Shown here in pieces: positions 3,355-23,733 of a stretch of 24,749 nucleotides of DNA; within the stretch, counting starts at the first letter, position 1, and each line of letters opens with the position of its first letter. The notes beneath the pieces are model-generated. The model was not told where the DNA came from. It saw only the letters and a list, made by a program, of their open reading frames with translations, and made no database searches. The stretch covers positions 1-24,749 of IMG/VR virus record IMGVR_UViG_3300006108_000057; one strand, given 5' to 3'. The stretch is from a virus. Both the position numbers and the translations under genes were made by a program.

Positions 3355-4101
3355 ATGTCTATACACTATTTAGACAACAAATATACCAAATGGTATTACA
3401 ACATCATTACCAAAGCGCAGAACCGAGTTACCGAAGAGTATACGGAAGAACACCATATTATTCCTAAAAAAATTGGTGGCAGCAACAAAAAAGAGAATAT
3501 GGTAAGATTAACCGTGCGTGAACATTATATTGTTCATCATTTGTTAATTAAGATGCTTAAAGGTGTACCAAAAAAGAAAATGGTACATGCATTTTGGTGT
3601 ATGAGTCACACTCGTGAAGAGATAAAGTTAAATAACCGACAGTATGAATACTTGAAAAAGATATATGCGGAAATGCAGTCGGAATTATCCAGAGAAATAT
3701 GGAATAGACCTGGACATAAAGAGAAGATGCGATTGATTCAGAATGATCCTGAATATATTAAGAATCAAAGTGAGAAAAAGAAAGAAAGATGGAAAGATGA
3801 AGAATATAGAATCAAACAAGAATCAATTAGAACGAGTGAAGAGTTTAGAACTAAGTTGTCGGCAATAAGAAAAGAGAATTGTGCGACACAAGAGTTTAGT
3901 GATTGGGCTAGAAACTTACATGTTGAAAAATGGTATGTATGTCATCCGGTACATACTGGTGGTAAAGAAATACTCATAGAACACTTGACTAATTTTTGTA
4001 AACAAAATGGATTAAGTCAAGGCAATATGGGTGCGATTGCTCGTGGTACTGGAGGAAGAAAACAACACAAAGGATGGACCTGCAGAAAGTTTAATTCATA
4101 A
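3355..4101 (+). CDS. HNH homing endonuclease (free-standing)
   Basis: A 248-residue HNH nuclease. The motif is clear: EHHIIPKKIGG (residues 32-42, His33/His34), Asn48, then REH with His57 and HHLL (61-64), a beta-beta-alpha metal fold. The middle is lysine/arginine-rich with NUMOD-like repeats (e.g. NRPGHKEKM, RTSEEFRTKL). The end, HLTNFCKQNGLSQGNM ... HKGWTCRK, looks like the helix-turn-helix DNA-binding module at the C-terminus of phage HNH enzymes. ATG is chosen because AAAGGAG lies 8 bases upstream. It is the only plus-strand gene in the window, convergent with gp13 (11-base overlap) and divergent from gp14. It is paralogous to the gene at 22981-23733. The likely role is selfish homing into phages lacking it; the target is unknown. 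Confidence 0.93.
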   Translation: MSIHYLDNKYTKWYYNIITKAQNRVTEEYTEEHHIIPKKIGGSNKKENMVRLTVREHYIVHHLLIKMLKGVPKKKMVHAFWCMSHTREEIKLNNRQYEYLKKIYAEMQSELSREIWNRPGHKEKMRLIQNDPEYIKNQSEKKKERWKDEEYRIKQESIRTSEEFRTKLSAIRKENCATQEFSDWARNLHVEKWYVCHPVHTGGKEILIEHLTNFCKQNGLSQGNMGAIARGTGGRKQHKGWTCRKFNS

Positions 4102-5585: not shown

Positions 5586-6293
5586 CTATATTTCTATTGG
5601 TTTAGAAAAGCATTCAGTGTGACCATTAAAGGTTTTAGATGGTCTATATCTATATTGTTTATTTGCTCGTTTTAATTCTTTCTCTTTTAAGTATATATCA
5701 AATAATTTACCTGTAACTTTTTCATGATAAACCATTTCATATGGTATTTTTCTGATGCGGCCTTCAATAGTGTCTCTAGTGATTCCAATCTTCCAGAAAT
5801 GTTCAATACCATCAGTAAACTCTATTAAGTATAATGTAGCATCTATTTCTTTTAGGTGTGGCTTCTTATTAAAAGTTTCATACTGCATAAAACCATTATT
5901 CAATTTAGAACAACTCGGACAACCATGTGTATTATGTAGAGATGCCCATGCCATACGTTCAAATACTAAATTGCATGTTAAACATTTAAATTTGCATTTA
6001 CTATCTATACCATTATAATCAGAAAGCAATTCAAATCCATTTTCTTTTAGTTTAACATTGACATACTCAATATCATGTTTATTTTTTCTACCTTGATTTG
6101 GTGCAGTAACTTCTTTTCTATAACAACCACATGATTTAGTGTGTCCATTTCTCAACTTTTTACCTTCAACCACTGTTTCATTACCACAATCACATTTACA
6201 TAACCAAGTTGCACGTCCCGTATTACTGTCTACCCTTTCAATTATCGATAATCGGCCAAATTTCTGGCCAGTCATATCAATTACTTTAGACAT
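5586..6293 (-). CDS. Zinc-finger/T5orf172 (GIY-YIG-like) putative homing endonuclease
   Basis: 235 residues from ATG at 6293. Residues 1-60 form the module MSKVIDMTGQKFGRLSIIER ... WLCKCDCGNE ... HTKSCGC (Cys32, 34, 36, 55, 57), frequent at the front of phage homing endonucleases. Residues 100-128 carry a second Cys cluster (CKFKCLTC ... CPSC). The C-terminal part, ATLYLIEF (152-159), FWKIGITRD (166-174) and GHTECF (224-229), resembles the T5orf172 branch of GIY-YIG nucleases, Glu227 being the likely catalytic acid. A longer in-frame form starting at TTG (6332) is possible, but ATG at 6293 fits better: it follows the preceding fibre gene's stop (TGA, 6297-6295) by one base and begins the conserved module. 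The reading of nuclease class is tentative; the endonuclease-like nature is fairly sure. Confidence 0.75.
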   Translation of the reverse strand: MSKVIDMTGQKFGRLSIIERVDSNTGRATWLCKCDCGNETVVEGKKLRNGHTKSCGCYRKEVTAPNQGRKNKHDIEYVNVKLKENGFELLSDYNGIDSKCKFKCLTCNLVFERMAWASLHNTHGCPSCSKLNNGFMQYETFNKKPHLKEIDATLYLIEFTDGIEHFWKIGITRDTIEGRIRKIPYEMVYHEKVTGKLFDIYLKEKELKRANKQYRYRPSKTFNGHTECFSKPIEI

Positions 6294-6294
6294 G

Positions 6295-7314
6295 TCATCT
6301 GGCCAAACTATATTTAAAAGGATTCTCCGCAAATGCGGCGTATATGTAGGTGCCGCCAGACGTATTTGTTAAATTTCCACCAGGTGTACGACACTTAAAA
6401 CCATTAGACAAGATGTCAAATTGATTATCAGTTAGTTCTGCACTTGAATTATCTGCCAGTAAATAATTAGTTATTGAATTGTATGTTCCTCTTGAAGTAT
6501 CAATCATTCCCCAATCAGAAGTTGCATCTGATCTTTTGATAAGAATAAAACGTGGTCTTAGCCCAGTATACACAAACGGCCCGGAAGTTGATCCATTTCC
6601 TGTATAGCTACCAAACGCACTGTATCCGGGTATGGCTGCGAAGCAGTAGGCAATTAGTTTTTGTGCAGTCGTAGTATTAAGATTTCCTTGGCGCAAAGTA
6701 AACACAGTTGATGTTGGTGATGTGCTTGACCAAACATTACTTGGAGTCTGTTGTGCCGCAGTTGTGTTTAAAACAATGTATGCGGTATTTCCAAGAGAGG
6801 CGTGATAGCAATACCATCCATCAACATAATCTCTATTTTTAATAATAATAAAACTAGGAGCAACACCTAGACCATGCCCCATAGTTGCGGCTGTACCCGA
6901 TGTATCTAAGCCAGTAAAACTAACCACACTAAACCCAGCCGTAGTATTCACGCTTACAGTGGATGTGATAGAGCCGTTGGTATTAGTAACCGCAGTACCA
7001 CCTGCTAACCAACACCAAGCAACATATGTGACACCTGAATTGTTATAAGTAGAATCAGATCCAAGTGTAAATCCGGTGGATGTAAATGCTGTTATGCCGT
7101 TAGAATCTGTTGATTCTGCATTAGTGGTATCTGAACTGATAGCCTTGGTTGATCCTCTTATACTATCAACTAACTTATGATCAGTTGCCGCAGACCGAGA
7201 TTTAATCCATACAAAATCAGGTTGAAAACCGACGGTAATAGTTTGTGTCGCTCCAGTACCTGTATAGGTGATAGCCTGCATGTATTTACGACCATCGTTT
7301 ATGGTTGTTGCCAT
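6295..7314 (-). CDS. Tail fibre/adhesin protein, DUF7483-like; probable detached C-terminal half of the LamG protein
   Basis: 339 residues. Two tandem copies of a beta-rich unit: the first has FQPDFVWIKSRSAATDHKLV (28-47), then WCWLAGG near 100; the second has GVAPSFIIIKNRD and further on RPRFILIKRSDATSDWGMID. It ends in AAFAENPFKYSLAR. In phage proteins I know of this type, such units follow a LamG/SPRY region ending in FKALNTYNLP within one polypeptide; here that half is the neighbour at 7917-9281 and an endonuclease gene lies between. The new start ATG (7312-7314) has AGAGAGGA upstream inside the endonuclease 3' end and overlaps it by 16 bases. It presumably still assembles on the virion as a host-binding part; whether the two halves associate is unknown. 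Confidence 0.75.
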   Translation of the reverse strand: MATTINDGRKYMQAITYTGTGATQTITVGFQPDFVWIKSRSAATDHKLVDSIRGSTKAISSDTTNAESTDSNGITAFTSTGFTLGSDSTYNNSGVTYVAWCWLAGGTAVTNTNGSITSTVSVNTTAGFSVVSFTGLDTSGTAATMGHGLGVAPSFIIIKNRDYVDGWYCYHASLGNTAYIVLNTTAAQQTPSNVWSSTSPTSTVFTLRQGNLNTTTAQKLIAYCFAAIPGYSAFGSYTGNGSTSGPFVYTGLRPRFILIKRSDATSDWGMIDTSRGTYNSITNYLLADNSSAELTDNQFDILSNGFKCRTPGGNLTNTSGGTYIYAAFAENPFKYSLAR

Positions 7315-7910
7315 ATATATCCTCTCTGTTTACATTTATCGAAATGATATCTTGTCATTCCGCTAGGACTACCTTGTTTATTACAATGTGGGCATACAAC
7401 TTTCGGTTGACTAGATTTGGCCAATCTCAGGTTATACTTATGTTCTTCCGTTAGTTGTTTCCCAACTTGTGCTAATCTTATTTTTTCCTTATGTTCCGGA
7501 GAAAGACTACCACGTGATTTTCCTAATTTTGCTAATCTCATTTTTTGCCGAGTTTCATCCAAGTGAGTTTTACCAAACATAGGATGGTCTCTTTCTTTGA
7601 ATGCTGCCGAAAATTTGTTGGAAGTTTGCTTTGCACCATTCAAACATAACGAGTCATTAAATAATTTATTGTGCATCTCTATCTCTAATTGCAAAGCATC
7701 TTCTTTCGTATCAAATGTTTCAATAATAGTTTTCTTCAGTAAATGTCTTTCATTTTTTAATAAGTATTTATATCGCAGACACCTTTCAGTTTTTCCTTTA
7801 GATGAACCGAAATAATCTTTTGTATTTTCTGGTGTTGCTCCGGATGCATACTTTGATCCTATATAAAATTCACCAGTTACAATATGTGTTACTTGATATA
7901 CATACGGCAT
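7299..7910 (-). CDS. GIY-YIG homing endonuclease
   Basis: 203 residues. N-terminal GIY-YIG domain: YVYQVTHIVTGEFYIGSK (3-20), then DYFGSSKGK (32-40), with the likely metal-binding Glu in LQLEIEMHN (76 or 78). Next are NUMOD3-type DNA-binding repeats: HPMFGKTHLDETRQKM (109-124), SLSPEHKEKIRLAQVGK (135-151) and LTEEHKYNLRLAK. A C-terminal zinc finger CPHC ... HFDKC (Cys173, Cys176, His189, Cys193) follows. Its ATG lies 6 bases after the stop of the LamG protein gene and its last 16 bases overlap the start of the downstream fibre gene, so it fills the whole gap. This is the layout of a free-standing homing gene that has split a gene, as with mobE in Aeromonas phage nrdA. Confidence 0.92.
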   Translation of the reverse strand: MPYVYQVTHIVTGEFYIGSKYASGATPENTKDYFGSSKGKTERCLRYKYLLKNERHLLKKTIIETFDTKEDALQLEIEMHNKLFNDSLCLNGAKQTSNKFSAAFKERDHPMFGKTHLDETRQKMRLAKLGKSRGSLSPEHKEKIRLAQVGKQLTEEHKYNLRLAKSSQPKVVCPHCNKQGSPSGMTRYHFDKCKQRGYIWQQP

Positions 7911-7916
7911 TATATT

Positions 7917-9281
7917 TTATAAGTTATAGGTGTTCAGTGTTTTATAACTTGTGTCGCTTGGGGTGTAATTAAAAGTAAAATAGCCACCTGTTTGATAAAC
8001 AGTTACATAAGGGAAAAGCTCTTGTGTTGCGGGTAATCCAGTAACAGTTGTTAAAGTTGTACCATTTAATTTAATAATGGTTGTGCCAGCATCTCTGTCA
8101 ATTAAAAATTCGTATTCATCTCCAGTTGCGCCAGAAAGACCAGAACCCGCAACATCAGTTACAACGCTACCGCCAGAATATTTGTGAACAATTCCGCGGG
8201 CTGAAATTGCTTGAACTTGGACTGTTGTATACCAATTTGCAGCCGCACCGCTACTAGCACCAGTTACCGGGGCTCCAGAACTATTGCAAGCAAATCCAAT
8301 ATAGCCGTCATTGCTACCAGTAACAGAACCAGTAACTTTAAATTTCCATGCCCATTTTCCAGTAATGGGGATTGACATGGTGCTTGGAAAACCAGAATAG
8401 TTTGCTGAAGAATTATTTAAATATAAATTTCCATCAGCAAGGGTGGCTCCTGAACTTGTAGTGACATTTACTGATAATGGATTACCAACAGCATAATTCC
8501 CCGCCGTCGCACTTGTCAGCGTAGGCACATCCAACATCGAATCATAGGTCGTACCTGCTGTCAGCGAGATGTTGTTACAAGTCCAGTTATTACCATTACC
8601 AGATCTATCTGCGCCTAATGTGGTCGTGCTAGTGTTGTTGCTAAACGGTAAGTAGAAACCGTTAGTGCCATAAGTGCCAGTGTACTTAAGTGGCTGCCAT
8701 ACACCTGTTGTTGCGTTAAATGCTCCAAAAGATGTGGGGGTTAAGGCTTGACCGTCAATGAAGTTGACTTCGGCTTGGTATCCATCCCAAAATCCTGCAT
8801 TACCGTCATAGCAACTCAGATACATTGGGCTTGATGCCGTATTAACTGCGGTGTTTGTGTTTTGAGCGGCTACGTTGTATGAAGAATAGGATGTTATTAA
8901 AGATCCATTCACATACATCAATACACGATTAGTCGATGTGGCTTGTGTTGTATCAACAGCAACAACAATGTGATACCAAGATGATGGGTCACGATACACC
9001 GCATTTGTTAAAGTTGCGGAAACTCCGTTGAAATCAAATCTTAAAACATCGGCTGAAGTTATTTGCACATCAAAGAATGTACTTGCTGAATTACCAGCGG
9101 CAAATATATTTTGTGAAACACCGAGTTTTCCTCGCTTTACCCATGTAGATAAAGTGAATTTCTGTTGATTACTGGTAACACTTGGAGTTCTATTCAAATA
9201 CGCACTCGCACTGCTACGAAAGCGCAACGATTTCTGGATATTGTACCCACTGGTACCACTTGCTAATACTGGAAATGTCAT
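7917..9281 (-). CDS. LamG (concanavalin A-like) tail fibre/adhesin protein, probable N-terminal half
   Basis: 454 residues. Residues about 15-180 form a LamG/concanavalin-like jelly roll: KSLRFRSSASAYLNR, then FTLSTWVKRGKLG (43-55), WYHIVVAVDTT and LMYVNGSLITSY. A short linker mentions FIDGQALTP and DRSGNGNNW, then a second SPRY-like beta sandwich runs from about 285 (GKWAWKFKVTG ... GYIGFACN ... YEFLIDRDAGTTIIKLNG) to the end, SYKTLNTYNL. Such proteins are typical of phage host-recognition structures and normally continue past NTYNL into DUF7483-type repeats, which here form a separate gene after the GIY-YIG insertion. ATG lies 2 bases after the preceding gene. Carbohydrate or cell-surface binding is inferred from the fold. 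Confidence 0.8.
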   Translation of the reverse strand: MTFPVLASGTSGYNIQKSLRFRSSASAYLNRTPSVTSNQQKFTLSTWVKRGKLGVSQNIFAAGNSASTFFDVQITSADVLRFDFNGVSATLTNAVYRDPSSWYHIVVAVDTTQATSTNRVLMYVNGSLITSYSSYNVAAQNTNTAVNTASSPMYLSCYDGNAGFWDGYQAEVNFIDGQALTPTSFGAFNATTGVWQPLKYTGTYGTNGFYLPFSNNTSTTTLGADRSGNGNNWTCNNISLTAGTTYDSMLDVPTLTSATAGNYAVGNPLSVNVTTSSGATLADGNLYLNNSSANYSGFPSTMSIPITGKWAWKFKVTGSVTGSNDGYIGFACNSSGAPVTGASSGAAANWYTTVQVQAISARGIVHKYSGGSVVTDVAGSGLSGATGDEYEFLIDRDAGTTIIKLNGTTLTTVTGLPATQELFPYVTVYQTGGYFTFNYTPSDTSYKTLNTYNL

Positions 9282-22980: not shown

Positions 22981-23733
22981 TTACAACTTAACACAAGACC
23001 ATCCACGATAATAACTCACTTTGTTGTTAGAGAGTTGACTCATCATACCTGCACTTAAACCATTCTCTTCACAAAATTTGCACAAACCTTTTACTTCAAA
23101 AGATTGTCCTTCAGGATTTGTTACCAAATACCTCTTGGCAGTTTTTTCAAATATCTTCTGTTTAACTTCTGGTCTATTCTGTACTTCTTTCTGTTGGGCT
23201 GATACCATACTTTTATACTCAGCAGAATTATAGTATGAGTTTGGATCATCCCACTTTTCTTTTATTCTGTCAGACTGAACTTGTTTACGCTCAGGTCTAT
23301 TCTGCACTTCTTTACCTTTCTCTCGCATCTTTTGATTAGTTTCGGGAGAGTTTAATTTAATTTTTAATGATTCTGATTTTCTTTTTACATAATCAGGATC
23401 TTTATGTAACTGAATAATATATTCCGATCTTATTTTTTTCAGATGTTCATATTGTGTACTGGTTACTCTCACATTTGATTTTTTAGATATAGTCATCTGC
23501 CAATACGCACATATCATTTTATATTTTGGTGCACCCCTTAACATTTTAGTAAGTAAATGGTGTACAATGAAATGTTCTCTAGCAGTGAGATTCACCATAT
23601 TATCTTTGGCATCCGTACCGCCTAATGCTTCCGGTATAATATGGTGATTCTCTTTGTATCCAACTAAATCTCTTGACTTAGCCGACTCAATAATTGCGTA
23701 ATACCAACGTGTATATTTATTATCTAAATACAT
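22981..23733 (-). CDS. HNH homing endonuclease, paralogue of the one at 3355-4101
   Basis: 250 residues. HNH core: ENHHIIPEALGG (His30/His31), Asn45 and REHFIVHHLL (His54, His58/His59). The start MYLDNKYTRWYYAIIESAK aligns with HYLDNKYTKWYYNIITKAQ of the other gene, and MLRGAPKYKM with MLKGVPKKKM. The middle has NUMOD-like basic repeats, VQNRPERKQVQSDRIKEKW and VQNRPEVKQKIFEKTAKR. The end, KGLCKFCEENGLSAGMM ... YYRGWSCVKL, is the same helix-turn-helix type. ATG has AAGAAGGAGA 7 bases upstream. It sits between two genes whose products both end in DGG(T/S)F, so it interrupts a likely operon. Here it is co-directional with its neighbours, unlike its paralogue. Confidence 0.93.
   Translation of the reverse strand: MYLDNKYTRWYYAIIESAKSRDLVGYKENHHIIPEALGGTDAKDNMVNLTAREHFIVHHLLTKMLRGAPKYKMICAYWQMTISKKSNVRVTSTQYEHLKKIRSEYIIQLHKDPDYVKRKSESLKIKLNSPETNQKMREKGKEVQNRPERKQVQSDRIKEKWDDPNSYYNSAEYKSMVSAQQKEVQNRPEVKQKIFEKTAKRYLVTNPEGQSFEVKGLCKFCEENGLSAGMMSQLSNNKVSYYRGWSCVKL

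Follow-up and report, generated by a model that had tools for sequence, protein, structure and literature searches.

The window analysed here, a 24,749-nt stretch of viral DNA, contains three tightly packed minus-strand genes: a LamG-SPRY gene (half 1), a free-standing homing endonuclease gene, and a DUF7483 gene (half 2) (Table 1). As read in the first-pass annotation, half 1 stops at SYKTLNTYNL, a single endonuclease gene follows, and half 2 comes next. The half 1 stop codon lies at 7919-7917 (CTGAACACCTATAACTTA-TAA) and is separated by AATATA (7916-7911) from the endonuclease ATG at 7910 (ATGCCGTATGTATATCAA); the sequence TAAAATA at this stop was common to the GIY-YIG cassettes of the window and of loci L163 and L164. 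The end of the endonuclease gene, CAGAGAGGATATATATGGCAACAACCATAA, holds both AGAGAGGA and the ATG of half 2, and the endonuclease stop codon is read out of ACC-ATA-AAC in half 2. The gap and overlap lengths given by the first-pass annotation were exact, and the ribosome-binding site that it placed within the end of the endonuclease gene was found there, upstream of the half 2 ATG. A second contig (L002) of the same virus showed the same arrangement, with 1 mismatch in 8,749 nt, and the arrangement is therefore not an assembly slip.

Table 1. Features of the split adhesin locus and other genes mentioned in the text
Feature	Position	Strand	Basis
Half 1 (LamG + SPRY, adhesin N-terminal part)	7917..9281	minus	ORF, 454 aa
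Six-base gap, half 1 stop to endonuclease start	7911..7916	minus	sequence
GIY-YIG/NUMOD3 free-standing homing endonuclease gene, Seg-like	7299..7910	minus	ORF, 203 aa
Ribosome-binding site AGAGAGGA for half 2, within endonuclease coding sequence	7320..7327	minus	sequence
16-base overlap, endonuclease end / half 2 start	7299..7314	minus	ORFs + sequence
Half 2 (DUF7483, adhesin C-terminal part)	6295..7314	minus	ORF, 339 aa
Second endonuclease-like gene (T5orf172-type, zinc module)	5586..6293	minus	ORF + profile matches
HNH-type endonuclease gene	3355..4101	plus	
HNH-type gene resembling that at 3355..4101	22981..23733	minus	
Repeat-rich protein gene, 2111 aa	13285..19620	minus	

Half 1 matched Laminin_G_3 in Pfam (47 bits). 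Its SPRY domain gave no Pfam call but was detected with a profile built from relatives. Half 2 matched DUF7483 (PF24299, 408 bits). The halves mapped to opposite ends of phrog_19943, a virion protein of 1227 positions in PHROGs, with half 2 matching positions 893-1227. The intervening gene product matched NUMOD3 in Pfam (39 bits), phrog_314 ("homing endonuclease," E 9e-29) and, with 31% identity over 95%, the Seg-like endonuclease of RB16. It combines a GIY-YIG nuclease, whose Pfam match fell under the cut-off (16.6 versus 22.6 bits), with a NUMOD-type DNA-binding part, as does the Seg-like class.

The second endonuclease-like gene begins one base past the half 2 stop, so that half 2 has an endonuclease gene on either side; its product has a T5orf172-type C-terminus and a zinc-type N-terminus as in phrog_374. 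A related gene was located directly after DUF7483 in 10 relatives, and the DUF7483 module is therefore often endonuclease flanked. With the two HNH-type genes, one of which lies between the head-tail connector genes Ad2 and Hc2 (PHROGs) and is oriented opposite to the genes around it, the window carries four endonuclease-like genes in 24.7 kb. A tail-fibre gene cluster also encodes a 2111-aa protein, most of which is made up of degenerate SAYDKANT/AAFDKANS-like repeats.

One gene in relatives

The concatenated halves were searched against phage genomes with tblastn. Seven phage records had one place covering at least 80% of the concatenation, headed by Methylophilales phage MEP301, in which 99% was covered by one "SPRY domain containing protein." Among cultured phages, a single fused ORF was carried by MEP301, CRP-811, and SS120-1. 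More than 400 IMG/VR loci were then gathered by protein searches, and their joints were classified with LamG, SPRY, and DUF7483 profiles. Of 241 distinct joints, in a similarity-based sample that does not give population frequencies, 180 were one continuous LamG-SPRY-DUF7483 ORF, 47 were split with nearly nothing in between and no endonuclease, and 10 were split by an interval of 450 to 630 bases holding an endonuclease ORF; the remaining 4 were LamG-DUF7483 genes lacking SPRY. One further locus, L163, which is truncated upstream, raises the interval-bearing split joints to 11. When the fused junction NTYNL-PTPTI was aligned with NTYNL-stop/MATTI of the window, every flanking residue was kept and none was lost, and the interval between the halves was filled by the endonuclease ORF alone. 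The earlier proposal that the halves form a single gene in other phages was borne out by this gapless alignment, and single proteins spanning both were found in MEP301 and at the 180 fused joints.

It is typical of intron and split-intein elements that an endonuclease gene separates two gene halves. The presence of such a gene at this joint would fit a self-splicing intron or split intein that rejoins the halves, as in "fractured genes," but this explanation is most improbable here. No Rfam match was obtained at the gathering threshold over the whole window, or at the joint even at E≤5. Only 6 nt precede the endonuclease gene and 16 nt of overlap follow it, in agreement with the first-pass view that there is no room for a self-splicing intron. 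Alignment to fused relatives revealed no surplus residues on either half at the break that could be a split-intein fragment, and half 2 is provided with a ribosome-binding site and start of its own.

The fused protein of locus L083 was modelled with AlphaFold2 from a 77-row alignment, with one GenBank-record row left out (mean pLDDT, 84.6; pTM, 0.86), and matched laminin-G/neurexin and SPRY folds in the PDB. In this model the break falls after N470-L471 in a coil, the last SPRY strand being called at 451-455 and the first DUF7483 strand at 483-489. Such a linker could be the easiest place for two polypeptides to replace one.

Endonucleases and restart signals at the joint

In all 11 endonuclease-bearing joints the interval was the endonuclease gene, but its type differed. 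The GIY-YIG/NUMOD3 type was present in the window, L163, and L164; an HNH type, zinc-finger-like in its C-terminal part, in L003, L128, L141, L174, L175, and L256; and a phrog_374 type in L253 and L257. The three families are mutually unrelated, and all their members at the joint sit a few bases or less from the same codon. Other parts of the adhesin gene yielded no endonuclease. The one candidate interruption there, in L358, had no evident endonuclease reading frame, and the wider spacing in S-SRM01, considered as a possible insertion, proved to be a single long ORF.

In every endonuclease-bearing joint, half 2 starts inside the last codons of the endonuclease gene. A Shine-Dalgarno-like core was present 4 to 12 bases upstream of half 2 in 11/11 joints by a looser definition and in 9/11 by a stricter one, compared with 13.9% and 2.9%, respectively, of internal in-frame ATG codons of fused genes. 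The joint endonucleases are under purifying selection, with dN/dS values of ∼0.17 for the window and L163 (dN, 0.17; dS, 0.97) and 0.11 for L128 and L141.

The occupant of the joint also differed between otherwise similar loci. L163 (GIY-YIG), L128 (HNH), and L253 (phrog_374) shared 82 to 83% DNA identity over 3 to 4.5 kb downstream; this similarity starts within ∼15 nt of the half 2 ATG, and the three genes upstream are unrelated. The half 2 sequences were placed on an unrooted tree of 232 rows and on a second, careful tree, with 48 rows used for the split-clade test. On the careful tree, a single half 2 clade was rejected both for the GIY-YIG carriers (AU test, p∼4e-49) and for the HNH carriers (p 1e-5); the rejection was weak for the phrog_374 pair (p 0.04). 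A single clade of all endonuclease carriers, which would fit one ancestral split with later turnover of the endonucleases, was not rejected (p=0.105). Between the window and L163/L164, the endonucleases were 70/69% identical and the half 2 sequences 60/61%. The distribution of the endonucleases among the phages, as judged from these comparisons, is non-vertical.

Two further ideas were considered and discarded. One was that an endonuclease at the joint boosts exchange between the halves; the identities of SPRY and DUF7483 correlated only weakly in fused and endonuclease-split genes alike (rho, 0.21 and 0.20, the latter with n=10), and no shuffling effect was therefore seen. Nor did the joint stand out as the best-conserved stretch of the gene, its windows ranking roughly 240 to 420 of 1,480, and since this conservation is only moderate, the argument that the joint is a natural target by virtue of conservation is weak.

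Split or endonuclease first

The first-pass annotation proposed that the GIY-YIG gene had split the adhesin. The exact halves and the endonuclease-filled joint support that picture, but the existence of splits without an endonuclease does not, and causation is not established. The refutation named in that annotation, relatives that lack the endonuclease and nevertheless carry two separate genes, holds in part: such relatives were found at 47 of the 241 joints and among cultured pelagiphages. The two-gene forms L085, L041, L067, and others read NTYNL-TAA-GGAACAACC-ATG-CCAACAACATATGCA, and the cultured pelagiphages HTVC024P, HTVC011P, and Greip have two genes, no endonuclease, and the sequence ...NL-TAATG-GC. 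In this sample, endonuclease-free splits were four times commoner than endonuclease-bearing ones; an endonuclease is therefore not needed for the break.

Settling in a ready intergenic gap is usual for free-standing homing endonucleases. The odds are about even that the split came first, through point changes or recombination with an allele of the two-gene form, and that the endonuclease settled later in the gap. In addition to the 47 endonuclease-free splits, the closest relatives of half 1 favour this order. The nearest, L085, is split at the same TAA without an endonuclease; it is 81% identical to the window's half 1, with the DNA match ending exactly at the common TAA, compared with 77% for the fused L083. 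L083 (1685-3213) and L085 (937-2474) themselves share a largely near-identical adhesin stretch: close to the joint, most 60-nt windows on either side are 97 to 100% identical in DNA, compared with 45 to 75% across ∼180 nt around it. Since they differ mainly in this patch, one-gene and two-gene forms can be seen to interchange in nearly the same protein, and the two loci constitute a natural allele pair of the adhesin.

The half 2 trees bear on the same question from both sides. The 232-row tree requires 21 changes of the fused/non-fused label, at least 9 of them forced by starred branches, and a single clade of all split forms among the 48 rows was rejected (p 9e-5). On the careful tree, half 2 of the window grouped with splits of differing content, namely, L003 (HNH), L257 (phrog_374), and L154 (split, empty), with support of 91/90 (not starred), which again favours an earlier split. 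Against this order, the sister of L256 (HNH) is the fused L113 (98/95). In addition, the proline of the fused protein, which is missing in the NL-stop split forms, is retained at most HNH joints (NLP-stop). These two observations suggest that HNH genes entered fused genes directly in some lineages. For half 2 of the window, no very close fused sister was found, the best being 61 to 62% identical. Its mixed group can be read as easily as one older split with changing occupants, and the GIY-YIG gene is therefore not accepted as the demonstrated splitter; its entry into an already split gene, or its replacement of another endonuclease there, appears at least as likely as its having made the split.

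It is also conceivable, although improbable, that two genes are ancestral, that the long ORFs are later fusions, and that the endonuclease lies between two old genes. The unrooted tree does not fix the direction of change, and DUF7483 can follow LamG without SPRY, as in the four cases noted above. However, fused forms dominate and span the whole tree, splits appear as scattered tips or small groups, and the rejection of a single split clade also argues against this explanation.

Interpretation and comparison with known split genes

Building on the observed break, its position and recurrence, the three families, and the restart signals, we interpret the locus as a phage adhesin in genes-in-pieces form, the joint of which is occupied by a mobile free-standing homing endonuclease (probability, roughly 0.78). 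Because two further endonuclease families, or an endonuclease-free cut, occupy the same joint in other phages, the SPRY-DUF7483 joint is best read as a recurrent, tolerated point of fission and endonuclease landing. The ancestral or common form would be a single LamG-SPRY-DUF7483 protein whose SPRY/DUF7483 linker permits a break in the reading frame without loss of residues. In different phages, this joint has received homing endonuclease genes from three or more unrelated families, which would replace one another. Each supplies the stop context for half 1 and, within its last codons, the Shine-Dalgarno sequence and ATG for half 2, so that both halves would stay expressed from one operon. We infer that the endonuclease cleaves joints that do not yet contain it and inserts a copy of itself there and that both halves are made and presumably assemble on the tail as two subunits.

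A bolder extension, which we consider doubtful, is that this linker serves permanently as an endonuclease dock in an adhesin family widespread among aquatic phages. Unrelated families would have convergently evolved C-termini that double as restart sites and would compete for and replace one another at one address, while co-conversion would move the two-gene allele between phages and make the C-terminal module a separately inherited subunit.

The adhesin joint belongs with the known genes-in-pieces Aeh1 nrdA/mobE, T4 gene 60/mobA, and phage 25 gene 43, since the same kind of event has been described in nrdA, gene 60, and gene 43 (PMC2988022). In Aeromonas phage Aeh1, the ribonucleotide reductase gene is arranged as nrdA-a/mobE/nrdA-b (PMC2988022, PMC10448857). 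As in the window, two ORFs that correspond to a single gene in relatives enclose a free-standing endonuclease ORF, and the Aeh1 enzyme works as separate polypeptides. Aeh1, however, combines an HNH endonuclease with a metabolic enzyme of demonstrated activity, whereas the window combines a GIY-YIG endonuclease with a tail adhesin. Unlike the Aeh1 site, the adhesin joint also accommodates HNH and phrog_374 types, and it occurs split without an endonuclease as well. In Aeromonas phage 25, the DNA polymerase gene is split as 43A/seg43/43B (PMC2988022). There, too, a Seg-type gene lies in a split gene, and in both cases it is uncertain whether it was the splitter or an invader of an existing split. 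The phage 25 gene encodes a polymerase, and a relative has an untranslated spacer in place of the endonuclease, whereas the endonuclease-free split adhesins have almost no spacer.

Differing endonuclease genes at one genomic address in related phages have a further parallel: in 2005, Sandegren reportedly described the replacement of mobC and mobE by SegH and Hef in T4-related phages. Those addresses are ordinary intergenic regions, whereas the adhesin joint lies inside a usually single gene. In the HEG-islands of ICP1 and other phages, a cargo gene is flanked by endonuclease genes (PMC10448857). Half 2 resembles such cargo in having endonuclease genes on both sides, but the halves shuffle as freely in fused genes.

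To our knowledge, genes split by homing endonucleases are known from a handful of enzymes of replication and nucleotide metabolism. What is new here is a structural adhesin gene in which the event is repeated, within this sample, at one base-level address, and which suggests that division of a phage adhesin into two polypeptides at a domain linker can still be tolerated. With three unrelated families and natural intact and endonuclease-free controls at the joint, the question of splitter versus ready gap becomes testable across lineages.
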